Below are positions 12,306 through 29,544 of a stretch of DNA of 40,201 bases, piece by piece. A program made the translations under genes and the position numbers. The stretch lies in the NCBI GenBank assembly GCA_024228575.1, contig JAAETH010000062.1:1-40201 (forward strand). Reading direction: 5' to 3'. The notes below the pieces were generated by a model. The model saw nothing but the letters and a program-made list of their open reading frames with translations. It was not told the DNA's origin and made no database searches. This DNA comes from Actinomycetes bacterium. GTDB lineage: Bacteria; Actinomycetota; Acidimicrobiia; Acidimicrobiales; Poriferisodalaceae. Position 1 is the stretch's first letter; each line of letters begins with the position of its first letter.

Positions 12306-15300
12306 GCTGGCACTTTCGTGTCTTCGAACAGCAGGATCCTGATGGCCGATAGCAATTTGTCCTCATCGATCGGCTTTGCCACATAGTCGTTGGCCCCGAC
12401 ATCCAAACACCTAGCCCGATCCTCGGGAAGGGCTTTTGCTGTGACAGCGATGATCGGCAGGTGCTCGAACCGCGTTTGGGCCCTGATCTTCTCGATCGCC
12501 TCGTAGCCGTCCATCACAGGCATCATTATGTCCATGACAACAATATCGATGCCGTCGATAGTGTCGAGGACGGTGAGCGATTCCTCTCCGTTTGTTGCCA
12601 GCTTCACCGTGAGGCCCGCATCGCGAAGCACCTTGCTGATTGCAAAACAGTTCCGCGCGTCGTCGTCCACTACCAGGACTGTCTGGTTCAGTTCCTGGTC
12701 AATTTCCGCTGGCGGGACTGGAACGGTGGAGTCGATTCCGTGTAGGAACAGCGAGATTTCACTGAGCAGCCGTTCGGGAGAAGCCGATCCCTTGATCACG
12801 ATCGAGGCTGTGAGCGCTTCGAGCTCGGCATGTTCAGCCTGGTCGAGTTCTTGTCCCGTATAGATCACTACCGGTGGAGTAGTGATCGACTTGTCCGCTT
12901 CGACCGCGGCGAGCAAATCCGGCCCGGACATATCGGGAAGGCTGAGATCCAGAATCATGCACCCGAAACGGCCCGATCGTAGTTTGGACAATGCCTCGGT
13001 TCCGGTGGGGGCAACGATGAGTTCGGCTTCGTCGCCGCTCAGAAGATTCCTGACAGCGATCGCTGTGCCTTCATCATCTTCGACCAGGAGGATTCGATTG
13101 AGTTCGCCCGAGCGTTCCTGGATGCTGGAGAACACCTCGGAGAGCTGCGCGTCGGTGACAGGTTTGGTCAAGACACCGGCCGCACCCTTGTCGAACATGG
13201 AGGCCAGCCCGGATCCACCAGAGATGACATGAACAGGTATTTGGCCCGTGCGCGTGTCCCCCTTCAGGATCTCGAGCACATCGGCGCCGCTCATGTCGGG
13301 CAGCCCGAGGTCGAGGAGGATTCCGGTCGGTCGGTGTGACGCGGCAAGCCGAAGCCCGGAAGCGCCATCGCTCGAAACCAGAACCTTGTACCCCTTTCCT
13401 CTGGCGAGCTTGGCCAAGAGCCTCGCAAATGCTGGATTGTCCTCGACAATCAGAACCGACTTGTCGCCAACCCCGATGGCATGGCGATCATCTGCGAAAG
13501 GGGGTGTGCTGAGCCCATGGGAATCGCCCACGACGTGATCGAGTTCAACGGTCTTCACCGTCTCTCCAGCGGGAGCCGTTGCATCGTGCCGATCGGCGGC
13601 ATCTCCAGGCATGGGAAATTCGGCTACCCCAACGGGCAGGAATAGCGTGAACGTGCTGCCGACGCCTTCCTTGCTCTCCAAATGAAGTTCCCCACCGAGA
13701 AGGTTGGTCAGCTGACGTGAAATCGTGAGCCCCAAACCAGTTCCCCCGTACTCGCGACTCGTAGAACCATCCGCCTGCTGGAACGCCTCGAAGATTAGAC
13801 GCTGCTTCTCCTTCGGAATCCCCACCCCGGTATCGGTCACCGAGATGGCCAAGGCTGCTGAGGGGATCAGATCTCCCCTCGAGAACACGGTGCTCTCGTC
13901 AACCGGCGCGATCTCGATGGTGACCGATCCGGCCCGCGTGAACTTCGCGGCATTTGAGACCAGGTTCTTGATGATCTGCTGGGCTCGCTGAGCGTCGGTA
14001 GTTATTGATGCCGGCACGCCGGGCTTCAGGATCACGCGAAGCTCGAGCCCCTTCTCGCTCATCACCGGGCTGAACACTTCCTTGACGTGAGCGCTGAAGG
14101 TTCCCAGTTCGACGGGCTCCATCACTACTGAGAGCATGCCCGCCTCCACCTTGGAGAGGTCGAGAATGTCATTGATCAGATCGAGTAGCGAGACTCCACC
14201 CGCGTGGATCACCTCGGCTTCCTGCACCTGCTCGTCAGTCAGATTTCCTTGGCGGTTCTTGGAGAAGGACCTGGACAGAATGAGCATGCTGTTGAGAGGT
14301 GTCCTCAGTTCATGGGACATATTCGCCAGGAACTCGGACTTGTATTTGCTGGCAAGCTCGAGATCTCGTGCCTTTTCCTCTACCAGTTCGTAGGCGATGG
14401 AGAGCTCCCCGCTTCGCATCTCCGCCTCGTTTCGCTGCTCGACAAGTCGCGCGCCGATCTCCCTCAGCCCATCGTTGGAGCTCTGCAGCTCCTCTTCCGA
14501 TGCCCTCAACTCGTCTGACTGCTCCGAGAGTTCCCGGTATGCCTCGGTCAACTCCCCCTGCGATTTCATGAGTGCCTCAGCCTGCTGCGCCAGATCCTCG
14601 ATCACCTCGCCAAGCTCACCGGGCACCTTCTCGTCGAATACGTCGGAATCGGCATCGAGTGAGGTGATGGTGCGGAGTTGATCGCGGATCAGGGTCAAGG
14701 AGTGAGACATCACATCAAACCTTCTGCCCAGCTTCGCGATTTCGTCGCTGCCCGTCATGCCCAGCGGCTCGGCTTTGAGATCTCCCCTGGCAATCGTGGT
14801 CGCACGTTCACCGATCAGGTTCATCGGGATCGCTATCGATCGCCCAATCAGTGCTGCGAGGCCGGCGGTGAGAAGGGTGAAGCCGATGGCGATCAATACG
14901 GAGTCGCGAAATGCTGCCTGTGCCTCCGCTGACAGCGTCGAGGAGAGATCGAGTATGTATGCCGATTGTGCATCCTCAACCTGTTTGAGCAGGTCGATTC
15001 GGTCTGTCGCTGTCTCGAACCAGGCGGTGGGTTCGACATCAAAGGGAGGCTCATTCGCGAGGGCGGTGTTCTCCATCAATGTCATCGTGGTGACAGCTGC
15101 GTGACTCTGACGATCCAGAAAGAACGCCCGTATCTCGGGAGTGGCGAAATCCAGAAATGTCCGTTGGAAGGCGGACTGATTGGCGATGAGCGAGGCGACG
15201 AGTGAGTGGACACCCGGACCAAACTGACCTTCGGCGAACACCTGAGCAAGCTGGGCTCGCTCGCGCCCTGCGTTCTCTTTGCCGCGGAGGAATGCCGTGT

Positions 15301-15835
15301 AGGCAACAACGCCCTGGGCGAGTTCAGCGTTTGTGGCAGAGGTCGCGACAGTTGCTGTGCTGGCAAGAAGTCCGGCGTTGAGATCCGTGTAGAAGTCCAG
15401 CACTTCGGTGGGATCAACCCCCAGGAAGATGGCCTCCGAACGCATTGGCTCCAGACGATCGAGCTCCTCGACGACAGGATCGAGTGCTCTGGCTACCGCC
15501 TCTGGTAGCTCGGCAAGATTCTCATCCAGAAAGATGGACAGCTCCGCCCGAGGGGCGTCGGTTGTGACCCACTGATCCCGCAACTCCACTCCGTAGCTCT
15601 CACCCTCGGTCGAGACGTACACGGAGGTCGCGCCACGCTCCTTCTGAACCTCGTGGGTTACGTTGCCGACGGCCACACTCAGATGGATGAGCCGGTCGAG
15701 GGCGGCCATCTCGGCCGAGTCTGCCCTCCGTTCCAGAGCGGTACCGGCCGCGAAGTAGGTGACACCAACAAGTGGGACGAGTGCAAGCACTCCCAGTTTC
15801 GCACGGAGAGACACCCTGCTGAGCGCACCACCCAT
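12302..15835 (-). CDS. NIT-HAMP hybrid histidine kinase with three receiver domains
   Basis: A protein of 1177 residues from ATG 15835, chosen for the AGAGG upstream and because it places the first membrane helix at 12-32. The extracytoplasmic part (33-310) is a NIT domain (QKERGATSVYVS at 64-75 and FLRGKENAGRERAQLA at 182-197), a family linked to nitrate/nitrite sensing. A second helix (about 312-332) leads to HAMP (333-385), then a long coiled coil (405-500). The HisKA has His508 in NMSHELRTPLN. The ATPase region covers about 615-735 (NLVSNAAKFT, VTDTGVGIP, GGTGLGLTISRQL). Three receiver domains follow with phospho-acceptor candidates D842, D963 and D1102. Its stop overlaps the cheR start, so the genes form one operon. 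Confidence 0.92.
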   Translation of the reverse strand: MGGALSRVSLRAKLGVLALVPLVGVTYFAAGTALERRADSAEMAALDRLIHLSVAVGNVTHEVQKERGATSVYVSTEGESYGVELRDQWVTTDAPRAELSIFLDENLAELPEAVARALDPVVEELDRLEPMRSEAIFLGVDPTEVLDFYTDLNAGLLASTATVATSATNAELAQGVVAYTAFLRGKENAGRERAQLAQVFAEGQFGPGVHSLVASLIANQSAFQRTFLDFATPEIRAFFLDRQSHAAVTTMTLMENTALANEPPFDVEPTAWFETATDRIDLLKQVEDAQSAYILDLSSTLSAEAQAAFRDSVLIAIGFTLLTAGLAALIGRSIAIPMNLIGERATTIARGDLKAEPLGMTGSDEIAKLGRRFDVMSHSLTLIRDQLRTITSLDADSDVFDEKVPGELGEVIEDLAQQAEALMKSQGELTEAYRELSEQSDELRASEEELQSSNDGLREIGARLVEQRNEAEMRSGELSIAYELVEEKARDLELASKYKSEFLANMSHELRTPLNSMLILSRSFSKNRQGNLTDEQVQEAEVIHAGGVSLLDLINDILDLSKVEAGMLSVVMEPVELGTFSAHVKEVFSPVMSEKGLELRVILKPGVPASITTDAQRAQQIIKNLVSNAAKFTRAGSVTIEIAPVDESTVFSRGDLIPSAALAISVTDTGVGIPKEKQRLIFEAFQQADGSTSREYGGTGLGLTISRQLTNLLGGELHLESKEGVGSTFTLFLPVGVAEFPMPGDAADRHDATAPAGETVKTVELDHVVGDSHGLSTPPFADDRHAIGVGDKSVLIVEDNPAFARLLAKLARGKGYKVLVSSDGASGLRLAASHRPTGILLDLGLPDMSGADVLEILKGDTRTGQIPVHVISGGSGLASMFDKGAAGVLTKPVTDAQLSEVFSSIQERSGELNRILLVEDDEGTAIAVRNLLSGDEAELIVAPTGTEALSKLRSGRFGCMILDLSLPDMSGPDLLAAVEADKSITTPPVVIYTGQELDQAEHAELEALTASIVIKGSASPERLLSEISLFLHGIDSTVPVPPAEIDQELNQTVLVVDDDARNCFAISKVLRDAGLTVKLATNGEESLTVLDTIDGIDIVVMDIMMPVMDGYEAIEKIRAQTRFEHLPIIAVTAKALPEDRARCLDVGANDYVAKPIDEDKLLSAIRILLFEDTKVPA

Positions 15836-16014
15836 CTCGTTGAACCTCTCAATACAGCCCTCTGATGGGCGGCAACTATGCGATATTTCGGCTCCCCGAG
15901 GCTCCGATCGGCCCATCCACACTGCAATTAAGCCCAAGACCAGTCACGAGTGGGACACTAGAACTCGGCTCCATTGTTGGTGGTTCGTTCATTTGTCGCC
16001 GGGCGCATGAGCTG
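15836..16014. other. Upstream region of the hybrid kinase operon
   Basis: This 179-bp stretch separates the 3' end of the phosphorylase gene from the hybrid kinase start and is the only long leader available to the signalling operon. It holds the AGAGG ribosome binding site just upstream of 15835. The relatively AT-rich part at 15880-15895 could hold the promoter, but no convincing -35/-10 pair was seen. Confidence 0.35.
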
Positions 16015-16954: not shown

Positions 16955-17713
16955 TCAGGTAGCCGCGTGTTCTGCAATCGTCGACCGGAACTGGCTTGGC
17001 GTCAGACCGTAGACATCCTTGAAACACGTGGTGAACTGGCTCTGGTCGTAGTAGTGGCAGGCCCTGGCGATGTCGGCGAGCCCAGCGCCGGTCGTGGCGA
17101 GCATCGACGCGGCTCTGTCGGCGCGAATAGCCATGAGGTGCTGTTTCGGCGACACACCGAGCACCCTCCGCATGGCACGATCGAGCTGATCGGTCGTGAG
17201 TCCGGCTTCCTCGGCGAGATCCGAAACTCGCAGCGCACCCCGATCGCTTCGTTCGGCCAGTTCGATCGCACGGCGCAACCCATCGCCGAGCTGGCCGGCG
17301 CGTCCGCCAAGGTCTGTCGGCGTTGAGATCGCGACGATGACGTCGTCGAACCCTTCGGCCTTGTGCAGGGCGCGAGATGTGAGGAACCAATGCCTTTGGC
17401 CGCTGGCGTCGGCGACTGCCTCGAGGTGATTGACGGGGGTGCGACCGGACACGAGCAGCGCTCGGTCCTCGGCGCGATATAGCCGGGCGAGGTCGGGTGG
17501 GCAGAAGTCGTCGACGGTCATGCCTATCAGTTCGTGGCGGCGGCGCTCCCAGCGACGCACGAACATCTCGCTCACAGCGAGGTAGCGGCCATCGGTGTCC
17601 TTTACACAGAAGTAGACGTTCGGTGAAGCCTCGAAGAGGTCGGTGAGAAGCTGCACGGAGGGAGCCAGCATCCCCCAAGTATCGGTGGCACCGGGTACCG
17701 ACGCAAAGCCCAT
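16955..17713 (-). CDS. PAS-AraC transcription regulator (first copy)
   Basis: A protein of 252 residues from ATG 17713. A PAS-like sensor covers roughly 25-145, with FCVKDTDGRYLAVSEMFVRR at its start. An AraC-type double helix-turn-helix covers 155-252 (VSDLAEEAGLTTDQLDRAM and LADIARACHYYDQSQFTTCFKD). It is a paralogue of the regulator at 25365-26141: with the starts chosen here, both have exactly 34 residues before the FC(V/L)KD motif, which supports the two starts. Alternative start: ATG 17671. It is divergent from the flavin oxidoreductase-MttB operon, and the gap holds inverted TCTTGT/ACAAGA elements shared with the second copy. It probably controls that operon in response to a small ligand bound by the PAS domain. 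Confidence 0.88.
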   Translation of the reverse strand: MGFASVPGATDTWGMLAPSVQLLTDLFEASPNVYFCVKDTDGRYLAVSEMFVRRWERRRHELIGMTVDDFCPPDLARLYRAEDRALLVSGRTPVNHLEAVADASGQRHWFLTSRALHKAEGFDDVIVAISTPTDLGGRAGQLGDGLRRAIELAERSDRGALRVSDLAEEAGLTTDQLDRAMRRVLGVSPKQHLMAIRADRAASMLATTGAGLADIARACHYYDQSQFTTCFKDVYGLTPSQFRSTIAEHAAT

Positions 17714-17738
17714 GGCGCGCGTTCGTTGGACATTTTGG

Positions 17739-17765
17739 TCTTGTGAGCGGCAAATTCCTACAAGA
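17739..17765. promoter_or_regulatory. Putative PAS-AraC operator (inverted TCTTGT...ACAAGA)
   Basis: TCTTGT at 17739-17744 faces ACAAGA at 17760-17765, with centres 21 bp apart, or two helix turns. The flanking bases give ACAAGACC (minus strand) and ACAAGATC (plus strand). The same pair occurs between the second PAS-AraC gene and putA. The right element ends 31 bases before the ATG of the flavin oxidoreductase. Confidence 0.5.
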
Positions 17766-17796
17766 TCGTGTTCGGTGAAACTGCTCGCGTGGGCCG

Positions 17797-19830
17797 ATGA
17801 GTGACCCACTGTTGCAGCCCTTCCAGCTCAAACACCTGACACTCAGGAATCGTGTCTTCTCGTCGGCGCACGAACCCGCCTACGGCGAGGGCGGCATGCC
17901 GACGGACCGCTATCGGCTCTACCACGAGGAACGGGCCAAGGGAGGGGTGGCGCTCACGATGACGGCCGGATCCGCTGTGGTGGCGAGGGACAGTCCGCCG
18001 GCGTTCGGGAACCTGCACGCTTTCGACGATGCGATCGTTCCGTGGATTCAACGGCTGACCGATGGCGTGCACGAGCACGGTGCGGCCTGCATGATCCAGA
18101 TCACCCACCTGGGCCGGCGAGCCGGATGGTCGCAGGACGATTGGCTCCCGATTGTGGCGCCATCGCCGATCCGCGAACCCGCCCATCGTGGTCACCCGAA
18201 AGAAGCAGAGGACTGGGACATCGACCGCATCATTGCCGACTACGCCGATGCCGCAGAGCGGATGGCCGCGGGAGGCATGGACGGGATTGAGATCCAGTCG
18301 TACGGACACTTCTTCGACACATGGTGGTCGCCAGCGACCAACACCCGAGACGACGAGTTCGGCGGGTTGATCGAGGCACAGATGGCTGTTCCGATGCAGA
18401 TACTCCGTGCGGTGAGGGACCGGGTCGGTCCTGAATTCATCCTCGGTCTGCGCATGGCCGTCGATGAGGCGAACCCGGCCGGGCTCGGTTGTGAACGCGG
18501 CCTCGAGATCCTGCGACACATCGACGATGCAGATCTCATCGATTTTGTCAACGTGATCCGGGGCCACATCGACTCCGATGCCGCGCTGGCAGAGGTGATC
18601 CCGCTCCACGGCAGTCCTTCGGCACCACACCTCGATTTCGCCGGCGAAGTCCGTTCAACCACCGATCTGGCGATCCTGCACGCCTCCAAGATCGACGACG
18701 TCGCCACGGCTCGGTTCGGCATCGCCGAGGGAAAGCTCGACATGGTCGGGATGACCCGTGCCCAGATAGCCGACCCCCATCTGGTCAACAAGATCCGCGA
18801 TGGGAAGGAATCGACGATTCGGCCGTGTGTGGGTGCGACCTACTGTCTCGATCGGATCTACGAGGCGGGTGAAGCGCTCTGTATCCACAACCCGGCGACG
18901 GGCCGCGAGGCGACCATGCCCCACGAGGTTTCGCCCGCGGAGGTACCGAAGCGGGTGGTCGTGGTCGGCGCAGGCCCCGGTGGGCTGGAGGCGGCGAGGG
19001 TTGCCGGCGAACGCGGCCACGAGGTGGTTGTGTTCGACGCCATGCCCAGGGCGGGAGGGCAGATCCGACTTGCGACGAGGAACAAACGTCGGATCGATCT
19101 CATCGGGATCATCGATTGGAGGCTCTCCGAACTCGATCGCCTCGGGGTCTCGGTTCACCTCGGCACCGTCGCCGACCGCGATACCGTGCTCGCTCTCGAA
19201 CCCGACGTCGTGGTCATCGCCACCGGTGGTTCACCCCAGCTGCCCCCGCTGGAGGCTGGGCACGAACTGGTATCGACGGCCTGGGACGTCATAGCGGGTG
19301 ACGTCCGCCCGAAGGGCCGTGTGCTGCTCTACGACGACGATGGAACCCATCACGCCATGACGGCCGCCGAACTGTTGGCGGAATCGGGTGTCGATCTCGA
19401 GATCGTGACACCGGAGCGCATGTACGGCGTCGACGTTGGTGGGATGAACGCTGTGGCGTACGCCCGGGCGGTGAACGAGGCCGACGTGCGCATCACATTG
19501 CACCAGCGGGTCGTGTCGGTCGCTCGGCAGGGCGACGACCTCGTGGTCCAGGTGGGTTCGGACCATTCGTCGGTGCGTCACGAGAGGCGTGTCGATCACG
19601 TGATCGTCGCCCACGGAACGGAACCAGAGGCAGACGTCTATTTCGAGCTGAAGGCCGACTCGAGCAATCGTGGTGCTGTCGACTACGGAGCACTGATCGA
19701 TGGGCGCCCGCAGACACTGGCTGCGAACCCCGATGGCAAGTACCAACTCTTCCGGATCGGTGATGCCGTGGAGAGCCGGAACATCCACGCTGCGATATAT
19801 GACGCACTCCGCCTGGTGAAGGACCTCTAG
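17797..19830 (+). CDS. NADH:flavin oxidoreductase, demethylase-like (old yellow enzyme family)
   Basis: A protein of 677 residues with two halves. The first, about 1-340, is an FMN-binding TIM barrel of the old yellow enzyme family (PFQLKHLTLRNRVFSS, then the AGMDGIEIQSYGHFF barrel segment). Residues 385-670 are a FAD/NAD(P)-binding half starting VVVVGAGPGGLEAARVAGERG. The layout matches trimethylamine dehydrogenase, dienoyl-CoA reductase and the DgcA/StcD-type demethylases of dimethylglycine and N-methylproline. In the iron-sulfur site, C344, C350 and C362 are present, but A347 stands where the usual second cysteine would be (C-V-G-A-T-Y-C). The stop codon is followed directly by the MttB-like start, so both form one operon. 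Together with that neighbour, N-demethylation of an amine is the likely job. The substrate is not proven. Confidence 0.85.
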   Translation: MSDPLLQPFQLKHLTLRNRVFSSAHEPAYGEGGMPTDRYRLYHEERAKGGVALTMTAGSAVVARDSPPAFGNLHAFDDAIVPWIQRLTDGVHEHGAACMIQITHLGRRAGWSQDDWLPIVAPSPIREPAHRGHPKEAEDWDIDRIIADYADAAERMAAGGMDGIEIQSYGHFFDTWWSPATNTRDDEFGGLIEAQMAVPMQILRAVRDRVGPEFILGLRMAVDEANPAGLGCERGLEILRHIDDADLIDFVNVIRGHIDSDAALAEVIPLHGSPSAPHLDFAGEVRSTTDLAILHASKIDDVATARFGIAEGKLDMVGMTRAQIADPHLVNKIRDGKESTIRPCVGATYCLDRIYEAGEALCIHNPATGREATMPHEVSPAEVPKRVVVVGAGPGGLEAARVAGERGHEVVVFDAMPRAGGQIRLATRNKRRIDLIGIIDWRLSELDRLGVSVHLGTVADRDTVLALEPDVVVIATGGSPQLPPLEAGHELVSTAWDVIAGDVRPKGRVLLYDDDGTHHAMTAAELLAESGVDLEIVTPERMYGVDVGGMNAVAYARAVNEADVRITLHQRVVSVARQGDDLVVQVGSDHSSVRHERRVDHVIVAHGTEPEADVYFELKADSSNRGAVDYGALIDGRPQTLAANPDGKYQLFRIGDAVESRNIHAAIYDALRLVKDL

Positions 19831-21363
19831 ATGACCGACATCTCCAAACCCCGTCGCCGAGGGCGTGGGGCTCGCAAGCTCGCCCGCGAAACCGCGGCAA
19901 CACCTCGATTGCCGACCATTCGTTACGGCATCAAGCCGGTTGAGGTCGTCAGCGCCGACCAGCTCGAGACCATCCACCAGGCATCGCTCAAGATCCTCAG
20001 AGAGGTCGGCATCGACTTTCGCGACGAAGTCGCGATCGAGCAATGGTCCGCCGCTGGGGCAGAGGTTCGCGGCGAACGGGTGCACCTCGATGGCGAGATG
20101 ATCGAGGATCTGGTCGCCAGAGCGCCCGAACGTTTCGAACTGACCGGACGGGGTCCGAACTCACGGTTCGAGATCGGGCTCGACACCGTTGCGTTTTGCC
20201 CCACACATGGTCCGCCCAACATTCGAGACCTCGAAGGCGTACGCCGGTTCTCGACGATCGACGACCTTCGCACCGTCAACAAGATCGTGCAGATGAGCCC
20301 GGGCTTCCACATGGCTTCTGGGTTCGCGGCAGAGCCGATGGACATAGCGGTTCCCTGGAGGCACCTCCACATCAACCACAGCAGTCTTGTCGAGACCGAC
20401 CTGGCCACCTTTGGTATGACCACCGGCGAGGAGCGAACGCGAGACAGCATCGCGATGGCCGAGATCGTCTACGGCTCGGATTTCCTTCGCGACAATGTGG
20501 TCATGCTCGGGCACATCTCGGGCAACTCGCCCTTGGTGTGGGACTCCACGATGCTCGAGGGTCTTCGGGTGATGATCGAGGCGGGGCAGGGTGTTCTGAT
20601 CTCGCCATTTGTCCTCGGTGCCGCGAACACACCGGCCGACGTGGCCGCCACGGCCGCCCAACTGAACGCCGAGGCGCTTGCATGTATCGCGTACAGCCAG
20701 TTGGTTCACCCGGGGGCTCCGGTCATCTACGGCCAGTATTCGGTGGCGGTGTCGATGAAGTCGGGTGCGCCGATGTCGGGCATGCCAGAGGTGAGCCTCC
20801 TGAACGGGATCGTCGGCCAGCTGGCGCGCCGCTACAAGGTGCCCTGGCGCACCTCCGCGGCGCAATCCTCTGGCAAGACATTTGATGCTCAGTCGGGGTA
20901 CGAATCGGCCACGTCCTATATGGCCGGAGTCACCGCAAACGCGAACCTGATGCTGCACGCCGGAGGCTGGGACGAGGCCGGGATGGTGACGTGCCTGGCG
21001 AAGCTCGTCGCCGACAGCGAACAGAACCTGATGATGGCCACCTATGCGCGCGGGGTGAGCTTCGACCGCTTCGATGAGGCCTTGGAAGCGGTCGGTCGTA
21101 TCGGGCCTGGCGGTCACTATCTCGGAGACGAGTTCACGCTCGCCAACTTTGAGGACGCCTTCTTCTCGCCCAAGATCCTCGACTACGAAGCGTTCGAGAC
21201 GTGGGAGCTCCAGGGATTGCGCGACATGTGGGAGCGTTCGCGACAGCACGCACAAGCAGTGCTCGCGTCGTACGAGCCACCACCGATGGACGACGCGGTA
21301 CGAGAGGAACTCGATGCCTTTGTGGAGCGACGCCAGTCCGAGCTTTCGCCCGACGTCGTTTGA
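19831..21363 (+). CDS. MttB-family (trimethylamine methyltransferase-like) protein without pyrrolysine
   Basis: A protein of 510 residues that starts with the base after the oxidoreductase stop codon. It has the full MttB family length and layout: a basic start (PRRRGRGARK), VVSADQLETIHQASLKILREVGIDF, CPTHGPPNIRDLEGVRR, then a TIM barrel. The reading frame has no internal TAG, so it is the non-pyrrolysine type. Characterised members of this type in anaerobes demethylate glycine betaine (MtgB), proline betaine (MtpB) and carnitine (MtcB), passing the methyl group to a corrinoid protein. No corrinoid protein, activator or methyltransferase partner is visible in the window. Pairing with the flavin oxidoreductase suggests serial demethylation of a quaternary amine. 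The gene ends 10 bases before the convergent ligase gene. Confidence 0.88.
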   Translation: MTDISKPRRRGRGARKLARETAATPRLPTIRYGIKPVEVVSADQLETIHQASLKILREVGIDFRDEVAIEQWSAAGAEVRGERVHLDGEMIEDLVARAPERFELTGRGPNSRFEIGLDTVAFCPTHGPPNIRDLEGVRRFSTIDDLRTVNKIVQMSPGFHMASGFAAEPMDIAVPWRHLHINHSSLVETDLATFGMTTGEERTRDSIAMAEIVYGSDFLRDNVVMLGHISGNSPLVWDSTMLEGLRVMIEAGQGVLISPFVLGAANTPADVAATAAQLNAEALACIAYSQLVHPGAPVIYGQYSVAVSMKSGAPMSGMPEVSLLNGIVGQLARRYKVPWRTSAAQSSGKTFDAQSGYESATSYMAGVTANANLMLHAGGWDEAGMVTCLAKLVADSEQNLMMATYARGVSFDRFDEALEAVGRIGPGGHYLGDEFTLANFEDAFFSPKILDYEAFETWELQGLRDMWERSRQHAQAVLASYEPPPMDDAVREELDAFVERRQSELSPDVV

Positions 21364-21373
21364 CGGGTGATCC

Positions 21374-22939
21374 TCAGCCGGGACGGACTCGAGACGATTC
21401 CTGGGTGTCCCATGTCGTGGGTGTGGTCCCTCGGTCGCGGAGCACATCCTTGCGGACCTTCTCGGTCGGTGTCCTGGGAAGTTCGTCGACGAAGTCGATG
21501 AACCTGGGCACCATATGGCGTGCTGCACGTCCGGTGCAGAACTCGACCAGAACCTCTGGTTCGATGATTCGCCCGGGCCGTGGCACAACGGCGACCATGA
21601 GGTCCTCCTCGGTGAGTTCGCTCGGCACCCCGAACGCGGCGGCGTCGAGTACGTCGGGGTGCAGTTTCACAACCTCTTCCACCTCGAACGCCGAGATGTT
21701 CTCACCACGTCGACGGATGCTGTCGGCGCTGCGTCCGACGAAGTAGTGGTACCCGTCAGCGTCTCGGTGAAGCCGGTCCCCTGTGTGGAACCATAGGTTT
21801 CGTCTGGACATCAACGTCGCTTCGGGCATTCCGAGGTAGCCATCGGCCATGATCGACGGCTCGGTTGGTCGCACGACGAGTTCGCCCACTTCCCCGATGC
21901 CGACTTCGAATCCGTCCTGGTCGTGGAGTTGGGTTTCGTACGCATCGATCACGGTGCCGCACGAGCCCGGTCTACGGGGCCGATCGATCGGGTGATACAT
22001 GGGGATCCCAGCGTCGGTGCTGCCGTACAGCTCGACGAGGTGTAGGCCGAATCGTTGCTCGAACTCACCGGCGATCTCGTCGGGTACCGGTACTCCCCAG
22101 GCAAGTCGGACCGAGTTGTCCGCGTCATGGTGTGACGGTTCGGCCTTGTGCAACATGGTGAGCGTCGCCCCCATGAAGTCGAACACCGTCGCCTGGAACC
22201 GCCGCGCCTCGGGCCAGAAACCCGAGACCGAGAAACGTTCCCCGATCGCGGCGGTCGCTCCCAGGACGAGGGCAGGTGCAACCGTCAACACCGTGGCGTC
22301 GATGTGGAACAACGGAAACGGGCAGTAGAGAACATCGCTGTCGAGGAAGCCGAGGTGTTGGGACATCAGCTCTGCATGGCGAAGGACGTATCGATGGGAC
22401 AGCACACATCCCTTGGAGGGTCCCGTTGTCCCAGAGGTGAACAAGACCATCGCCGGATCGACGGCCTCATGGGTCGACGAAATGGCGATCGTTGAAGAAG
22501 CCGCGAGTTCCTCCCAACGGCCACCTACTGCGATGTGCACCAGGCCGGCGGGTAGGGCGTCGGCGACCTCGTCGAGGTTGGCGGCAACCGTCGCGTCGTA
22601 CAACACGGTTCGGGGTTGCGTCACCGTGATCGCATGCACCAGGGCCGGTCCCTTGAACGCCGTGTTGATCAGGCATGCAACCGCGCCGAGGCGCGATAGA
22701 GCGAAGAGCGAGATCATGAATTCGGCACCATTGGCCATCAGGACTGGAACCGTGGCCCCCGGTTCCACACCGATCGACGCCAGCCCGGCCGCCAGCCTCG
22801 AGGTGCGGTCGTCGACCTCGGCGAATGTGAGGTCGCCCGAATCAAACCGTAGGAATTCACGATCTGTGTGGGTGCGAGCCCGCTCGGCGAGCAACCCGTC
22901 GATCGTCGGCCCGAGCGCCGATTTCGAATCGCTCAACAC
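21374..22939 (-). CDS. Acyl-CoA synthetase (class I adenylate-forming, CaiC-like)
   Basis: A protein of 521 residues from GTG 22939, taken because upstream codons lack family similarity. An in-frame ATG at 22987 would overlap the divergent hydratase. The A3 motif VLFTSGTTGPSKG is at 165-177. LVELYGSTDAGIP, the HTGD motif and the flexible-hinge RRRGENISAFEVEEV follow, with the catalytic lysine in TPTEKVRK near the C-terminus. It activates a carboxylic acid with ATP and loads it onto CoA. Its sequence style is near the carnitine/crotonobetaine ligase group, which fits the neighbouring MttB-like gene and hydratase. A medium-chain or aromatic acid ligase cannot be excluded. It is convergent with MttB and divergent from the hydratase (27-bp gap). 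Confidence 0.85.
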   Translation of the reverse strand: MLSDSKSALGPTIDGLLAERARTHTDREFLRFDSGDLTFAEVDDRTSRLAAGLASIGVEPGATVPVLMANGAEFMISLFALSRLGAVACLINTAFKGPALVHAITVTQPRTVLYDATVAANLDEVADALPAGLVHIAVGGRWEELAASSTIAISSTHEAVDPAMVLFTSGTTGPSKGCVLSHRYVLRHAELMSQHLGFLDSDVLYCPFPLFHIDATVLTVAPALVLGATAAIGERFSVSGFWPEARRFQATVFDFMGATLTMLHKAEPSHHDADNSVRLAWGVPVPDEIAGEFEQRFGLHLVELYGSTDAGIPMYHPIDRPRRPGSCGTVIDAYETQLHDQDGFEVGIGEVGELVVRPTEPSIMADGYLGMPEATLMSRRNLWFHTGDRLHRDADGYHYFVGRSADSIRRRGENISAFEVEEVVKLHPDVLDAAAFGVPSELTEEDLMVAVVPRPGRIIEPEVLVEFCTGRAARHMVPRFIDFVDELPRTPTEKVRKDVLRDRGTTPTTWDTQESSRVRPG

Positions 22940-22953
22940 GGGCCAGGCCCGAC

Positions 22954-22959
22954 TACGGT
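22954..22959 (+). promoter_or_regulatory. Putative -10 box of the leaderless hydratase gene
   Basis: TACGGT ends 6 bases before the GTG at 22966 and no ribosome binding site is present. The same hexamer and spacing occur at 38603-38608 before the secreted repeat protein. Confidence 0.5.
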
Positions 22960-22965
22960 GACGCG

Positions 22966-23751
22966 GTGGACGACAATCACGAGACAAGCGGTTCCTTCCG
23001 GTACGAAACGGTGCGGTCCGAAGTCGACGATCACGGCGTTCGGACCATCTCGTTGAACCGGCCCGAGAGCCTGAACGCGATGAATCGCCAGTTGATCGAC
23101 GACGTGGCCTCGGCCTTCGATGACGCCAATCGGGACGACTCGACCCGTGCGATCGTGTTCACCGGTACCGGCCGAGCCTTTTGTGCCGGTGACGACCGCA
23201 AGGAACACACACATCCTCGCGACGAGACCGAGGCGCGCGACGTCGTCGACGCGATACAGGCTGCAACCGAGGCAATCGTGTTCGGCGCCAAGCCCGTCGT
23301 CGGAGCGATCAACGGATGGGCGGTCGGAGGCGGTTTCGAGTGGGCGATCAACTGCGACTTCCCCATTTGGGGGGAGAGCGCGGTCGGGTTTTTCCCCGAG
23401 GTGTCACTCAATCTGTTCGTCACTGGCGCGGTCACCTCACTGCTCCCGGCCCTGGTCGGGCTGAACACCGCACGCGAGATGCTCTTCCTCGGGCAGCGGT
23501 ACTCGGCACAGGAACTTCACGGCGTGGGGGTTGCGTGGCGTGTCGCGCCCGACGATCAGCTCATCGCCGAAGCAACAGCGGTGGCGCGGCGACTCGCCTC
23601 GCTCCCGAGCCTGTCGGTCCGGGCGATGAAACGAACCCTCAACCAGGCGGCGGCTACCGACCTCCGTGCAGCCTTGGACCTCGAGACCGAAGCGACGGTC
23701 GTCGGGTTCCTCGATCCGCTCACGACCGAGCTCCTGAAACAGTTCGACTGA
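22966..23751 (+). CDS. Enoyl-CoA hydratase/isomerase family protein
   Basis: A protein of 261 residues from GTG 22966. The crotonase fold is clear: TISLNRPESLNAMN, TGTGRAFCAGDD with the oxyanion-hole backbone, KPVVGAINGWAVGGGFEWAINCD, and the two catalytic-type glutamates in FFPEVSL and NTAREMLFLG. It adds water to, or isomerises, an acyl-CoA double bond. It lies divergent from the acyl-CoA ligase with only 27 bases between the starts, so both may share control. Together they resemble the CaiC/CaiD pair of carnitine metabolism, but general crotonases cannot be split by substrate from sequence. The start is supported by a TACGGT box 6 bases upstream. Confidence 0.88.
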   Translation: MDDNHETSGSFRYETVRSEVDDHGVRTISLNRPESLNAMNRQLIDDVASAFDDANRDDSTRAIVFTGTGRAFCAGDDRKEHTHPRDETEARDVVDAIQAATEAIVFGAKPVVGAINGWAVGGGFEWAINCDFPIWGESAVGFFPEVSLNLFVTGAVTSLLPALVGLNTAREMLFLGQRYSAQELHGVGVAWRVAPDDQLIAEATAVARRLASLPSLSVRAMKRTLNQAAATDLRAALDLETEATVVGFLDPLTTELLKQFD

Positions 23752-24424: not shown

Positions 24425-25249
24425 CTAGCCCGCCTTGGAAGCGCGCACAAAGGCGGATATGAACTGCCCTTCCATCGAGGTGAGTTCGTCGATGCTGATG
24501 CCGCTGTTGGCGAGCACGTCCCCTGCGTCGGCGGGATCGTAGATGCGGGTGGGCACGATCTCGATGTCGGTGAACCCAGCGGCGGCCAGCAGTGAGCGGT
24601 ACTCGTCCTCATCGAGGGCGCCGGCGACACACCCGATCCAGGCTTCGACACTGGAGCGAATGCGGGGGTCGATGGAACCGCGTACGACGACGTCCGAGAC
24701 GGCGAAACGACCACCCGGCCGCAGGACCCGGAACGCCTCCTTCAGTACCTGTCCCTTGTCGGACGACAGATTGATCACACAGTTCGAGATGATCACGTCG
24801 ACAGAGGCGTCGGGCAGTGGGATGTCTTCGATCTGGCCCTTGAGGAACTCGACGTTTTCCACCCCGGCTTCGCGCTGGTTCTTGCGGGCCAGCTCCAGCA
24901 TGTCGTCGGTCATGTCGAGGCCGTAGGCCTTGCCGGTGGCTCCCACCCGTTGGGCGGACAACATCACATCTATGCCGCCTCCCGAGCCGAGGTCGAGAAC
25001 GACCTGACCTTCGGAGAGCTCGATGAGCGCGGTGGGGTTGCCACATCCGAGAGAGGCTTGGAGTGCCGCATCGGGCACGTCGACCGTCTCGTCGGCGGTG
25101 TAGAGGTCGCGGGTGATCGGGTTGGACGAACAGCAATCGCTGGACCGGCTTCCTCCCGAGGCATCGATTACCTCCCGGGCAATCTTCCCGTACCGATCGC
25201 TGACCTCCTTCTGGAGTTCGTCGTCGCGGATGTCGGTGTTCTGGGTCAT
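24425..25249 (-). CDS. arsM: Arsenite S-adenosylmethionine methyltransferase
   Basis: A protein of 274 residues from ATG 25249, chosen for AGGGAA 8 bases upstream. It methylates arsenite to methylated arsenicals in the cytoplasm with SAM and thiols. The SAM-binding motif VVLDLGSGGGIDVMLSA is at 83-99. The three conserved arsenic-binding cysteines match the family: C69 in SLGCGNP, C157 in SNCVINL and C207 in GCVAGAL. A further CC pair (C39-C40) lies in the N-terminal part, as in other ArsM proteins. It converges on the VOC gene. An AT-rich promoter with a matching inverted repeat lies upstream, typical of an ArsR-type metalloregulator, but no arsR gene is in the window. Confidence 0.93.
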   Translation of the reverse strand: MTQNTDIRDDELQKEVSDRYGKIAREVIDASGGSRSSDCCSSNPITRDLYTADETVDVPDAALQASLGCGNPTALIELSEGQVVLDLGSGGGIDVMLSAQRVGATGKAYGLDMTDDMLELARKNQREAGVENVEFLKGQIEDIPLPDASVDVIISNCVINLSSDKGQVLKEAFRVLRPGGRFAVSDVVVRGSIDPRIRSSVEAWIGCVAGALDEDEYRSLLAAAGFTDIEIVPTRIYDPADAGDVLANSGISIDELTSMEGQFISAFVRASKAG

Positions 25250-25285
25250 CGTCGTTCCCTTTTCCATTGTTCTCGTATCGACTGT

Positions 25286-25321
25286 CATCGATATGGTAAT
25301 CATCATATTGATGCTTGTCAA
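25286..25321 (-). promoter_or_regulatory. arsM promoter overlapped by a near-perfect inverted repeat
   Basis: On the minus strand TTGACA (25316-25321) is followed after 17 bases by TACCAT (25293-25298), a good -35/-10 pair. Over it lies an inverted repeat CATCGATATG (25286-25295) and CATATTGATG (25304-25313), 9 of 10 positions matched. The location over the promoter and the AT-rich ATCA/TGAT ends suit an ArsR/SmtB-type repressor. The regulator gene is not in this window. Confidence 0.55.
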
Positions 25322-25364: not shown

Positions 25365-26141
25365 TCAGCTCGTACGGTCGGTGCGCCTGCCGATCTGGAT
25401 GGCGCGAAACTGGGCTGGAGTCTCGTTCGTCAATCGGGCGAACTGGTGGGTGAGGTTCGCCTGGTCGTAGAACCCTGCTGTCGCAGCGACATTCGCCAGC
25501 GATATCTCTGCATCGGCCAGAAGTTCTGCGGCGCGATCGACTCGAGCTCGGACCACGTAGTTCGATGGCGAGAGCCCGAATGTTTTTCTCATCCTGCGAT
25601 CGAGCTGGGCTGCTGTGAGCCCGGCGGTCTCGGCGAGGTCGGCCACGCGGATCTTGTCCTGCAGATGGGACCTGACGTGTTCGACGACCTTGGCGAGAGC
25701 CCTGGCGTCGCCATCGTCGTGCCTCGGTGTCTTCAAGTCCCTGCTGACGCTCACCAGCCCCGGCCGGCTCTGGTTCTCGGCCGGTTCGATTGGCAACTTG
25801 GTCGTGAGGTACCAGCCCAGGGTCCCATCGGCGCGGCGGATGAGCTCGAGTTCGTCCCGCAAGGCCTCACCCGACGTCAGGACATGTGTGTCCTGCTCGT
25901 CGTAGCGCTGAGCGAGGGCGGGCGAGAAGAGGTCGTTCGCCTTCCTGCCGATCACTTCACGCTTCGACCTCCGGCCGGTCCGGCGAACGAACGCGTGGTT
26001 GACGGCGAGGTATGTCCCTCCGGGATCCTTCAAGCAGAAGATGACGTCGACGAGCACGTCGAGAAGGCCGAGCAACTGGGTTTGGCACATCGGCAGATCG
26101 TCGATGCCCGGAGTCTTGTCGTTGGTGGAATCCTGCGTCAC
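25365..26141 (-). CDS. PAS-AraC transcription regulator (second copy), next to putA
   Basis: A protein of 258 residues from GTG 26141. The alternative ATG 26090 is also possible. The GTG start makes exactly 34 residues precede FCLKD, as in its paralogue at 16955-17713. A PAS-like sensor covers about 22-150 (FCLKDPGGTYLAVNHAFVRR, then DELELIRRADGTLGWYLTTKL). The AraC double helix-turn-helix is at 160-250 (VADLAETAGLTAAQLDRRM and VAATAGFYDQANLTHQFARL). It is divergent from putA. Two inverted TCTTGT/ACAAGA elements lie in and next to the gap. The likely role is regulation of putA in response to proline or a related amine. On the minus strand a TACGAT sits 10 bases before the GTG and overlaps the right element, which suggests autoregulation. 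Confidence 0.85.
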   Translation of the reverse strand: MTQDSTNDKTPGIDDLPMCQTQLLGLLDVLVDVIFCLKDPGGTYLAVNHAFVRRTGRRSKREVIGRKANDLFSPALAQRYDEQDTHVLTSGEALRDELELIRRADGTLGWYLTTKLPIEPAENQSRPGLVSVSRDLKTPRHDDGDARALAKVVEHVRSHLQDKIRVADLAETAGLTAAQLDRRMRKTFGLSPSNYVVRARVDRAAELLADAEISLANVAATAGFYDQANLTHQFARLTNETPAQFRAIQIGRRTDRTS

Positions 26142-26162
26142 TGCGCGCCGAATCGTACAAGA
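26114..26162. promoter_or_regulatory. Putative PAS-AraC operator at putA (inverted TCTTGT...ACAAGA)
   Basis: TCTTGT at 26114-26119 faces ACAAGA at 26157-26162, with centres 43 bp apart, about four helix turns. The twelve bases TACAAGACCGTG here differ by one base from TACAAGATCGTG before the flavin oxidoreductase operon. The right element ends 49 bases before the putA ATG. If the regulator starts at GTG 26141, the left element is inside its coding sequence. Confidence 0.5.
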
Positions 26163-26211
26163 CCGTGACCGTTCGGTCCGCGATGATTGGAGTGTGTCGG
26201 GAGAGGTGAAT

Positions 26212-29200
26212 ATGGAAACAGCCGGGAGAGTCGATGGTGCTTCTGAAGGTCCAGAGGACCTCTCGGGTGTCGCAGAGCGGGCGGTCGCACTCGTGGATGA
26301 GTGGCTGATCTCGGCGGTTGGACGCGAAACCGCGAACGAACGCAGGACCACCAACCGTTTGGCCGGCGTCGTGGCCGACCCCGTCGGTGTCGAGTTCGCC
26401 ATGGCTTTTGTGGACCGGGTGATTCGTCCAGAGGACAACCGAGTCGCTGCGGGCCAGCTCGCTTCGCTCGTTCAAGGTCAGGAGCTGCCGGCGTTTCTCT
26501 CCAGAATCGATCAGTTGCTGCTTCGTGTAGGAGCGAGAGTTGGGAGGATCTTGCCGACGGTTGTCATGCCTTTGGCCCGGCGACGTATGCGATCGCTCGT
26601 CGGGCATCTGATCGTGGATGCCGATGAATCGGCCCTCCACGAACACCTCGGAGCGCGTCGATCAGAGGGTTTCCTTCTCAACGTGAATCTCCTCGGCGAG
26701 GCGGTGCTCGGTGAGCGAGAAGCGCAGCGCCGGCACGCAGAGACACTTCGCCTCCTCGAACAAGGCGCCGTCGACTACGTCTCTGTCAAGGTCTCGTCGG
26801 TCGTGTCGCAGCTGAACTACTGGGACTTCGAAGGATGTGTCGATCGAGTCCTCGAGGCGCTCCGCCCCCTTTTCGAACGGGCGCAGAGAACCGACCCCGA
26901 GACGTTCATCAACCTGGACATGGAGGAGTATCACGACCTCGAACTGACGATGCGCGCTTTCCAGGCCCTCCTCGACGAGCCGCGATTCCACACCGTCGAT
27001 GCGGGGATCGTGCTGCAGGCGTACCTTCCCGACTCGTTCGACGCATTGCGGTCGTTGTCAGCGTGGGCCAACGATCGGGGGCGACGCACGGTCGAGGGCA
27101 AACGGGGCGGCACGGTGAAGGTTCGGCTCGTGAAGGGCGCAAACCTCGCGATGGAACGGGTCGAAGCCGAGATCCATGGGTGGGGCCACGCGCCCTACGA
27201 ATCGAAGGCCGAGACCGACGCCAACTACAAGCGGTGTCTGGATTGGGTGCTCACCCCCGAACGCCTCGGGTCGATGAGTGTCGGGGTTGCGAGCCACAAC
27301 CTGTTCGATCTGGCGTTCGCCAAACTCCTCGCCGAGGAACGGGGAGTCGCGGACCGCGTCGAGTTCGAGATGTTGGAGGGGATGGCGCCGGGCCACTCGA
27401 GGCTTCTGGGCGACGACGATGCCGGGATGTTGCTCTACACACCTGTCGTTTCCGCAGATCAATTCGATGTGGCCATCAGTTACCTCTTTCGCCGGCTCGA
27501 GGAGAACGCCTCGGACGAGAACTTCATCCACCATCTCTTCTCGCTGAGACCCGGATCTGTGGCTGCGAAGCGGGAGGCGGATCGCTTCCGCAAGGCGGTT
27601 CGAGACCGCTGGACGGTCCGGTCGTCGCCAAATCGTCGGCAGGATCGCCACTTCCCTCCCGAGGTCGCTCCGACGGGGAGCTTCACCAACGCGTCCGACA
27701 CCGACCCGGCCATCGCTGCGAATCGGGCTTGGGTCGCCGAAGCGCTCGGCCAGACCGACACCACTCCACGGAATGGCATCGTCGGGGTAACGAATGGCGT
27801 CGACGACGTTGTGGCGCTCGCACGTTCTGGGCATACGAGCTGGTCACACCGCGGTGCCGAGCAGCGCCGTGAAATCCTCTTCGCCGTGGCGAATGAGCTC
27901 GAACGGCGTCGCGGAGATCTTGTCGCGACGATGGTTCACGAGGCTCGAAAGACCGTGGCCCAGGCGGATCCTGAGGTGTCGGAGGCCGTTGATTTTGCAC
28001 GGTACTACGGTCAACGAGCCATGGATCTGGACGCGGTCGAGGGCGCGACGTTCGAGCCATTTGGTGTCGTGTTGGTCGCTCCACCCTGGAACTTCCCGGT
28101 AGCGATCCCGACCGGTGGTGTGATGGCGTCGTTGGCCGCCGGGAACTCCGTCATCTTGAAGCCGGCGCCTGAGACTCCCCGATGCGCCGAGATAGTCGCA
28201 GAGTCGTGCTGGGCTGCGGGGGTTCCACGCGATGCCATCCAGTTCCTTCGTGTTCCCGACGACGAGACGGGTCGCCACCTCGTATCTCACCCGGGAGTCG
28301 ACGCCGTCATCCTCACCGGTGCATACGAGACGGCCGAGCTGTTCCGCTCGTGGAGGCCCGACCTGCGGATCTTTGCTGAGACCTCTGGCAAGAACAGCCT
28401 GATCGTCACCCCGAACGCGGATCTCGATCTCGCCGTCGCCGACCTGGTGGCATCGGCCTTCGGACACGCGGGTCAGAAGTGTTCGGCCGCCAGCCTGGCC
28501 ATTCTCGTCGGTGATGTCCATCGGTCGGAACGGTTCAGGCGCCAGCTCGTCGATGCCGTGTCGAGCCTGAAGGTTGGTCCCTCCGAGGATCTCTCGACCA
28601 CCATGGGGCCGACCACAACCGAGCCGACCGACAAGCTCGTCCGAGCATTGACCCAGCTCGACTCAGGTGAACAATGGCTCGTGCAGCCCCGCGAGTTGGC
28701 ACCGGGAACCTGGACCCCTGGTGTGAAGGACGACGTCGTACCCGGCTCATGGTTCCACCAAACCGAGTGTTTCGGACCGGTACTCGGACTCGTCCGCGCC
28801 GGCGATCTCGCCGAAGCGGTGGCAATCCAGAACGCCACACCGTTCGGGCTCACCGGTGGCATCCACTCACTCGATGATGGCGAGATCCAATACTGGCTCG
28901 AGCGTGTTGAGGTCGGAAACGCCTACGTGAATCGAGCCACGACCGGAGCGATCGTCCAGCGCCAGCCATTCGGCGGTTGGAAGCGCTCGACCATCGGGCC
29001 CGGGGCAAAGGCCGGGGGCCCGAACTATGTGGCTCAACTCGGCGTGTGGCGGGCGTCGCCCGGTCTGGTTGAGACCGAGGAGTGGCTCGAGCGGGCGGTC
29101 GCGAATGATGTGGCGGTTTGGGCCGACGAATTCGGTCTCGAGCACGATCCGACCGGCCTGCCGTGTGAGTCGAACCGTTTCCGGTACCGGCCCGCAGGTC

Positions 29201-29544
29201 GTGTGGTGATTCGTGTCGGGGCGGGAGGCGAGATCGCCGGCCGTCGCGCCCTCGCTGCCGCGGAACGCTGTGGCTGTGACGTCGTTGTGTCGTCAGCGGC
29301 CGAGGAGTCGACGCAACACCTTGTCGACCGCCTCAGCGAGATCGGTCCAGACCGGATCCGCGTGATCGGTTCGACCGATCCGGCGATCCGTCAGTGCGCC
29401 AACGATCTCGGCATATACACCGCGGACGCTCCGGTCGTCGCCAACGGTCGCATCGAGCTGCTCCACTATCTACGCGAGCAGGCGATCAGCCAGACCACCC
29501 ACCGGTACGGCAATCTCGTGTCGAGTCAGTCGGTCAGAAGCTGA
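26212..29544 (+). CDS. putA: Bifunctional proline dehydrogenase / P5C dehydrogenase
   Basis: A protein of 1110 residues from ATG 26212, supported by the strong ribosome binding site GGGAGAGG 5 bases upstream. It oxidises proline to glutamate in two steps, first with FAD, then with NAD. The proline dehydrogenase barrel covers about 60-430 (VSVKVSSVVSQLNYWDFEG, VRLVKGANLAMER, LEGMAPGH). The aldehyde dehydrogenase part covers about 470-960, with APPWNFPVAIPTGG, catalytic-type Glu723 (FAETSGKN) and the nucleophile Cys757 (GQKCSA). A C-terminal segment of roughly 150 residues follows. No N-terminal DNA-binding domain is present, so it does not repress itself as in enterobacteria. The divergent PAS-AraC gene probably does the regulation. 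Confidence 0.95.
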   Translation: METAGRVDGASEGPEDLSGVAERAVALVDEWLISAVGRETANERRTTNRLAGVVADPVGVEFAMAFVDRVIRPEDNRVAAGQLASLVQGQELPAFLSRIDQLLLRVGARVGRILPTVVMPLARRRMRSLVGHLIVDADESALHEHLGARRSEGFLLNVNLLGEAVLGEREAQRRHAETLRLLEQGAVDYVSVKVSSVVSQLNYWDFEGCVDRVLEALRPLFERAQRTDPETFINLDMEEYHDLELTMRAFQALLDEPRFHTVDAGIVLQAYLPDSFDALRSLSAWANDRGRRTVEGKRGGTVKVRLVKGANLAMERVEAEIHGWGHAPYESKAETDANYKRCLDWVLTPERLGSMSVGVASHNLFDLAFAKLLAEERGVADRVEFEMLEGMAPGHSRLLGDDDAGMLLYTPVVSADQFDVAISYLFRRLEENASDENFIHHLFSLRPGSVAAKREADRFRKAVRDRWTVRSSPNRRQDRHFPPEVAPTGSFTNASDTDPAIAANRAWVAEALGQTDTTPRNGIVGVTNGVDDVVALARSGHTSWSHRGAEQRREILFAVANELERRRGDLVATMVHEARKTVAQADPEVSEAVDFARYYGQRAMDLDAVEGATFEPFGVVLVAPPWNFPVAIPTGGVMASLAAGNSVILKPAPETPRCAEIVAESCWAAGVPRDAIQFLRVPDDETGRHLVSHPGVDAVILTGAYETAELFRSWRPDLRIFAETSGKNSLIVTPNADLDLAVADLVASAFGHAGQKCSAASLAILVGDVHRSERFRRQLVDAVSSLKVGPSEDLSTTMGPTTTEPTDKLVRALTQLDSGEQWLVQPRELAPGTWTPGVKDDVVPGSWFHQTECFGPVLGLVRAGDLAEAVAIQNATPFGLTGGIHSLDDGEIQYWLERVEVGNAYVNRATTGAIVQRQPFGGWKRSTIGPGAKAGGPNYVAQLGVWRASPGLVETEEWLERAVANDVAVWADEFGLEHDPTGLPCESNRFRYRPAGRVVIRVGAGGEIAGRRALAAAERCGCDVVVSSAAEESTQHLVDRLSEIGPDRIRVIGSTDPAIRQCANDLGIYTADAPVVANGRIELLHYLREQAISQTTHRYGNLVSSQSVRS

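Follow-up and report, generated by a model that had tools for sequence, protein, structure and literature searches.

Proline betaine (stachydrine) is a widespread plant and algal osmolyte whose first demethylation in aerobic organisms is attributed to Rieske oxygenases. It is already known that MttB-family enzymes of anaerobes act on proline betaine, that MttB-type demethylation of glycine betaine occurs in an aerobe, and that N-methylproline demethylases of the StcD/HpbA type accompany Rieske enzymes. Here we describe a gene pair from an Actinomycetes bacterium (Acidimicrobiales; Poriferisodalaceae; GenBank assembly GCA_024228575.1) in which an StcD/HpbA-type oxidoreductase gene is followed directly by a gene for a pyrrolysine-free MttB-family protein. 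The window, meaning the whole stretch of 40,201 nucleotides that was analyzed, is the entire contig JAAETH010000062.1 (here C62). Judging from gene families and their context, we lean, with moderate confidence, toward the view that the products of the two genes demethylate proline betaine, or a near analogue, in consecutive steps.

The proline betaine:corrinoid methyltransferase MtpB was described from Eubacterium limosum (Picking 2019, via PMC8604678), whose MtpB, MtcB, and MtyB use one MtqC encoded elsewhere, according to the accessible part of PMC8604678. Going by this partial description, the MttB protein of the window is like MtpB in belonging to the pyrrolysine-free MttB family and in having its corrinoid protein and pterin methyltransferase encoded elsewhere, but MtpB comes from an anaerobic acetogen. 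We know of no oxidative second demethylation in the MtpB system. The aerobe Ruegeria pomeroyi demethylates glycine betaine via MtgBCD-type genes, and it is proposed that several of its MttB paralogues use a common corrinoid protein (PNAS 2025; PMC12478193, accessible part). The genome studied here holds a similar set on another contig, C539, with MttB-family, corrinoid protein, pterin protein, RamA, and DUF1638 genes. Unlike the window pair, the R. pomeroyi genes act on glycine betaine, and the accessible part of their description mentions no StcD/HpbA partner.

The closest known counterparts of the upstream gene product are StcD and HpbA of S. meliloti and Paracoccus, which share with the window oxidoreductase a CxxAxxC...C motif. 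The partner here is an MttB protein, whereas the related oxidoreductases that we examined stand by an Stc2-like Rieske enzyme, a pyrroline-5-carboxylate (P5C) reductase, or a racemase, or have no informative neighbor. Stc2, the Rieske stachydrine demethylase (which we take to be the enzyme of structures 3vca and 4qup), would carry out the same first step as the window MttB, and two loci (L060 and L161) carry an Stc2 homologue close to this type of oxidoreductase. Stc2 is nevertheless an unrelated, O2-dependent enzyme, and it has no match in the genome studied here at E <= 1e-5. We found no description of an MttB-StcD/HpbA pair in the part of the open literature that we consulted, including the accessible parts of PMC9999580 and PMC11306105 (subscription papers and preprints lay outside the search), and no open paper that joins hpbD, betaine, and methyltransferase. 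What would be new is the substrate, the Rieske replacement, and the operon, that is, the pair as a B12-type substitute for the Rieske enzyme.

The window oxidoreductase is 57% identical to the sole homologue (E <= 1e-30) on pSymB of S. meliloti 1021, the replicon on which stcD, an N-methylproline demethylase gene, is located (PMC12239276, accessible part). Because the pSymB record has no usable annotation, we infer that this homologue is stcD and treat it as a candidate. Four records named N-methylproline demethylase (H97, H119, H129, and H135, three of them as hpbA) are 55 to 57% identical to the window protein, and the annotated HpbA is 56% identical; HpbA and the StcD candidate both align with it over the full length. 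In a 27-row tree, from which the partial L107 match was left out, the window protein fell inside a 16-row clade with the StcD candidate and HpbA (100/100). The sole DgcA-like row, L166, which lies in a Rieske/FeS/ETF cluster and owes its DgcA label to its neighbor genes, is 42% identical to the window protein and falls outside the clade. The best NCBIfam model for the window protein was TIGR03997, at 479 of 793 bits; the S. meliloti protein scored 501 bits, likewise below the cut-off, and no StcD or HpbA model appeared in the list for either protein. Among the clade members, L060 stands with the reductase and the oxygenase of a Rieske system, the latter scoring 765 bits against 3vca/4qup, and L161 stands by hpbD, a proline/betaine transporter, and a Rieske enzyme that shares 75 to 79% identity with its L060 and S. 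meliloti counterparts. L163 has a P5C reductase and a proline/betaine transporter nearby, and L164 has a proline racemase family gene. We set aside one apparent peculiarity of the window protein, the replacement of the second Cys of the iron-sulfur motif CxxCxxC by Ala, because this Ala is common to the StcD, HpbA, and DgcA-like rows. Elsewhere in the genome, a 44% paralogue of the oxidoreductase (L030/L157, on C127) adjoins a sulfatase-like gene (by eye).

In the downstream protein, the PF06253 match spans residues 8 to 505 (581 bits versus a cut-off of 25). Its frame has no internal stop and hence no in-frame amber codon, and Gln345 aligns with the pyrrolysine of M. barkeri MttB (7xcl; alignment read by eye). 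The protein scores 404 bits against 4yyc and 325 bits against glycine betaine methyltransferase (9yce/2qne), and we propose that it would methylate a corrinoid protein from a quaternary amine. The oxidoreductase stop codon, TAG, ends at 19830 and the MttB ATG begins at 19831, with zero bases between them. An earlier reading of this DNA, the original prediction, had described just such abutting frames, with a pyrrolysine-free MttB protein and a demethylase-type flavoprotein forming one unit; the junction, the residue at the pyrrolysine position, and the StcD/HpbA placement of the oxidoreductase all bear this description out. The genome carries nine MttB genes over the Pfam cut-off, the window one included. 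The other eight lie on C539, C903, C618, C109 (two), C316, C308, and C711, and several of them adjoin dimethylglycine-dehydrogenase- or sarcosine-oxidase-like flavoproteins (by eye); the genome seems specialized in methylated amines.

In the pathway that we propose, MttB would demethylate proline betaine once, loading the methyl group onto the Co(I) of a corrinoid protein encoded in trans, presumably that of the C539 set, from which the methyl would pass to tetrahydrofolate. The StcD/HpbA-type oxidoreductase would oxidatively demethylate the resulting N-methylproline to proline and formaldehyde, and PutA, encoded on the same contig next to a sister regulator, would take proline to glutamate. 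MttB would thereby occupy the place of the O2-dependent Rieske enzyme Stc2 of rhizobia. Proline betaine had earlier been named as the simplest path, a suggestion that gains support from the StcD/HpbA clade and from the putA-type regulator.

To ask how often the pair recurs, we scanned genome contigs and recovered at least 582 MttB relatives, of which the best 80 loci were kept; 45 of these have 8 kb on both sides of MttB, and 35 are shorter on a side. Genes in unannotated loci were called by a codon-position rule, and some neighbors were named by eye. Four of the best 80 exceed 60% identity to the window MttB, namely, L040 (Tateyamaria, 73%), L041 (Neomegalonema, 71%), L042 (Defluviimonas, 68%), and L043 (Fuscovulum, 67%). 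In L040 and L041, the oxidoreductase lies directly upstream of MttB, as in the window. Within the class, oxidoreductase matches (E <= 1e-120) were found in at least 7 of 296 genomes, the window's own counted; such class-search counts are lower bounds because only the best 4 to 6 candidates per genome were scored. Among the matches listed, the closest other oxidoreductases of the class are those of G051 (66%) and G161 (69%, cut by a contig end). In both of these genomes, which belong to the window's order, an MttB of another clade lies directly upstream of the oxidoreductase, i.e., the gene order is reversed, and a formate-tetrahydrofolate ligase gene comes next after the G051 pair. A third genome of the class, G243, has no MttB within 17 kb around its oxidoreductase. 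The pair was seen, then, in four other genomes: two are from Alphaproteobacteria and two from the window's order. The L119 locus has its oxidoreductase 2.2 kb ahead of an MttB that belongs to the HpbD-linked group, and a second oxidoreductase (32% identical) lies in between.

The trees of the two partners differ. In the oxidoreductase tree, the window grouped with G051 and G161 (97/98), and L040, L041, and L119 formed a separate group (100/99). In the MttB tree, the window grouped with L040 and L041 (100/98), and G051 and G161 joined the C539/C903 group. The 53-row MttB tree drew 33 rows from 31 hand-chosen loci among the best 80 and 6 from five loci on plasmids; the others were 4 genes of the same class, those of G051, G161, and G157, the window gene, and six of its eight paralogues in the genome. 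The C711 gene (match over 212 residues only) and one C109 gene (no match at E <= 1e-20) were left out. Because the oxidoreductase and MttB trees are incongruent, the pair was probably assembled more than once, and repeated assembly argues for a functional link between the two proteins. Tentatively, and with less confidence than we place in the pathway itself, we suggest that oxygen-living bacteria may repeatedly have swapped the Rieske enzyme for B12-dependent methyl transfer, combining one and the same N-methylproline demethylase with MttBs from at least two, perhaps three, clades; one methyl would then be saved as methyl-tetrahydrofolate and only the second oxidized. If this is true, a testable substrate would be at hand for many "trimethylamine methyltransferase" genes of ocean and soil genomes, part of the methyl flow would lead to folate and B12 rather than to formaldehyde, and the 2025 glycine betaine finding would extend to ring betaines.

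A methyl transfer of this kind calls for corrinoid machinery, and the original prediction had remarked on the absence of a corrinoid or reactivation protein. That remark is true of the window and untrue of the genome, in which a genome-wide check found three small corrinoid proteins (PF02607) and one RamA-type reactivase (PF14574) on other contigs. On C539, a corrinoid protein, a DUF1638 protein, a pterin-binding methyltransferase, RamA, and another MttB stand side by side, so the implied lack of machinery does not hold. The nearest NCBIfam models for the C539 corrinoid protein are two MtgC models, both scoring below the cut-off (208 of 370 and 172 of 310 bits). The corrinoid, pterin, and reactivase genes are not clustered with the window MttB, which thus does not sit in a complete MtgBCD-type operon. 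This absence in cis looks normal for such MttB genes, because homologues of the C539 corrinoid, pterin, and RamA proteins were found in none of the 80 best related MttB loci (E <= 1e-25). The organism had also been predicted to be aerobic, and a heme-copper oxidase gene (PF00115, 168 bits, cut-off 34.8) fits aerobic life. Further corrinoid proteins are encoded on C128 (L021) and C390 (L022), each by URO-D-type methyltransferase-like and M24/creatinase-like peptidase genes (by eye), and perhaps belong to another demethylation system. The PF02607 frames of the genome are 304, 215, and 264 amino acids long; none is MetH-sized, and methionine synthesis may therefore depend on MetE or on a split enzyme like that of Ruegeria.

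The link to proline comes from the regulators and from HpbD-type epimerases, neighbors of a proline-betaine type that lie close to some related MttB genes (see below). The regulator divergent from the pair has a single full-length relative in the genome; this relative is 39% identical and adjoins putA 8 kb away on C62; two other matches in the genome cover the DNA-binding part only. That the pair and putA have a regulator type in common, as had been claimed, is therefore upheld by the full-length relative. With the putA-side regulator as the query, matches were found in at least 10 other genomes of the 296 in the class, and putA adjoins in 10 of 10. PruR, an AraC-family regulator of putA, has been published for Pseudomonas aeruginosa (PMC5879082, accessible part). 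The ORF of the regulator next to the pair overlaps the oxidoreductase start by 13 bases, and for this reason its true start probably lies further in.

Features of the proposed proline betaine locus on C62 (ORF, open reading frame; aa, amino acids)
Feature	Position	Strand	Details
StcD/HpbA-type FMN/FAD/FeS N-demethylase (old yellow enzyme family), proposed N-methylproline demethylase	17797..19830	+	677 aa; PF00724 145 bits, PF07992
Pyrrolysine-free MttB-family methyltransferase, proposed proline betaine:corrinoid methyltransferase	19831..21363	+	510 aa; PF06253 581 bits
Divergent PAS_4-AraC regulator	16955..17809	-	PF12833, PF08448
Second PAS_4-AraC regulator, divergent from putA; ORF, true start probably inside	25365..26438	-	Homologues adjoin putA
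putA, proline dehydrogenase/P5C dehydrogenase; ORF, true start probably inside	25999..29544	+	PF01619 205 bits, PF00171 317 bits

Several observations weigh against proline betaine demethylation by this pair. The oxidoreductase lies within 300 bases of MttB in just 2 of the best 80 loci and within 8 kb in 6, and in L042 and L043 MttB stands instead with an unrelated FAD oxidoreductase and a DapA-like gene. Three members of the oxidoreductase clade (L032, L162, and L167) have no betaine or proline gene directly adjoining. No betaine transporter was recognized beside the window pair (by eye). The failure to find an Stc2-like Rieske enzyme in the genome at E <= 1e-5 speaks for the proposed pathway, but that search had no positive control. 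The regulator family is not exclusive to proline, because its plasmid relatives (five opened of 55 records) stand by other genes too: one is found at a 4-hydroxyproline epimerase cluster, a second next to genes of the aconitase and proline racemase families, and three, from Deinococcus, by transporters. Around the G051 and G161 pairs, the fetched stretches gave no PAS-AraC match at E <= 1e-15. Finally, the draft genome (6.15 Mb, 96.9% complete, 3.47% contaminated), probably a metagenome-assembled genome, consists of 960 contigs, and assignments in trans may therefore be wrong. The binning of C62 is backed by class-level kin of putA, of the putA-side regulator, and of the oxidoreductase, and that of C539 by the relationship between its MttB and the one in the same-order genome G157; the window MttB itself is closest, among the matches listed, to alphaproteobacterial genes.

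The pair might instead act on another betaine, with hydroxyproline betaine as the nearest rival substrate and pipecolate betaine as a further example; the same two reactions would then operate on another ring, which we regard as unlikely. This alternative, too, draws on the neighbors of related MttB genes: 14 of the best 80 loci have an HpbD-type epimerase (at least 50% identity) no more than 8 kb away and 11 have it within 300 bases (one, in L060, a fragment), 47 have a DapA-like gene within 8 kb, and aldehyde dehydrogenase (ALDH) and FAD-oxidoreductase neighbors are common. The epimerase that adjoins MttB on C. sphaeroides pB scores 671 bits against 4e8g/4izg/4j1o and 525 bits against 4h2h, and it shares 78% identity with an annotated hpbD. 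Two proteobacterial relatives of the window regulator also stand by the 4-hydroxyproline epimerase cluster or the proline-racemase-family gene mentioned above. Beside the window pair, however, no DapA, ALDH set, or epimerase was seen (by eye), and putA lies near, with a regulator that is sister to the window one. An enolase-superfamily protein encoded on C945, 43 to 46% identical to HpbD-type rows, might have supported hydroxyproline betaine, but its best model is cis-3-hydroxy-L-proline dehydratase, under the cut-off, and we rejected it as support; its neighbors are unrelated (by eye). Likewise rejected was an HpbD link at G161, where the enolase-superfamily gene is a generic MR_MLE gene, with 128 bits to galactonate dehydratase and 25 to 26% identity to HpbD-type rows. 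In two Mesorhizobium loci (L060 and L063), MttB is directly followed by an HpbD-type epimerase (the fragment in L060), and a Stc2-like Rieske enzyme lies 2.5 and 3.7 kb off, so that both candidate first-step enzymes share one neighborhood.

Glycine betaine and dimethylglycine are quite unlikely substrates of the pair. With these substrates, MttB would be MtgB and the oxidoreductase a DgcA-like dimethylglycine demethylase, and it is true that glycine betaine methyltransferase is a solved relative of MttB (the 325-bit match above) and that the aerobic MtgBCD system was published for glycine betaine (PMC12478193, accessible part). Yet the DgcA-like L166 is just 42% identical to the window oxidoreductase and outside its clade, and the C539 MttB, which adjoins the corrinoid set, is a better MtgB candidate.

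Carnitine, gamma-butyrobetaine, or crotonobetaine use is very unlikely. Such a route would enlist the CoA ligase and enoyl-CoA hydratase (crotonase-family) genes that adjoin the pair, and MtcB and MtyB show that such substrates occur within the superfamily (PMC8604678, accessible part). The ligase (21374-22987, minus strand), however, is convergent with the pair and outside its operon, its best NCBIfam model gives 491 bits versus a cut-off of 722, and the crotonobetaine/carnitine-CoA ligase model gives 244 of 651 bits. No CoA ligase was seen by the pair in the available stretches of the four other genomes (L040, L041, L138, and L140; by eye, with L041 and L140 ending at the pair on one side). 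The claim that carnitine would fit equally well is weakened accordingly, and the overall interpretation given earlier is supported in part, namely, for the MttB/flavoprotein unit, for proline betaine as the simplest path, and for aerobic life.

That the two genes are chance neighbors, or that the oxidoreductase has an unrelated redox function, is highly improbable: the oxidoreductase family is wide, and 74 of the best 80 MttB loci lack such a neighbor within 8 kb of available sequence, but the pair occurs in four other genomes, in both gene orders, and with MttBs of different clades.

Two other genes of the window deserve mention. Between the amine genes and putA lies a gene of the arsenite methyltransferase ArsM family (24425-25321, minus strand; NF008823, 328 bits, cut-off 263). 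Upstream, a large hybrid sensor kinase (11451-15937, minus strand) with a NIT domain and three receiver stretches adjoins a CheR methyltransferase gene.

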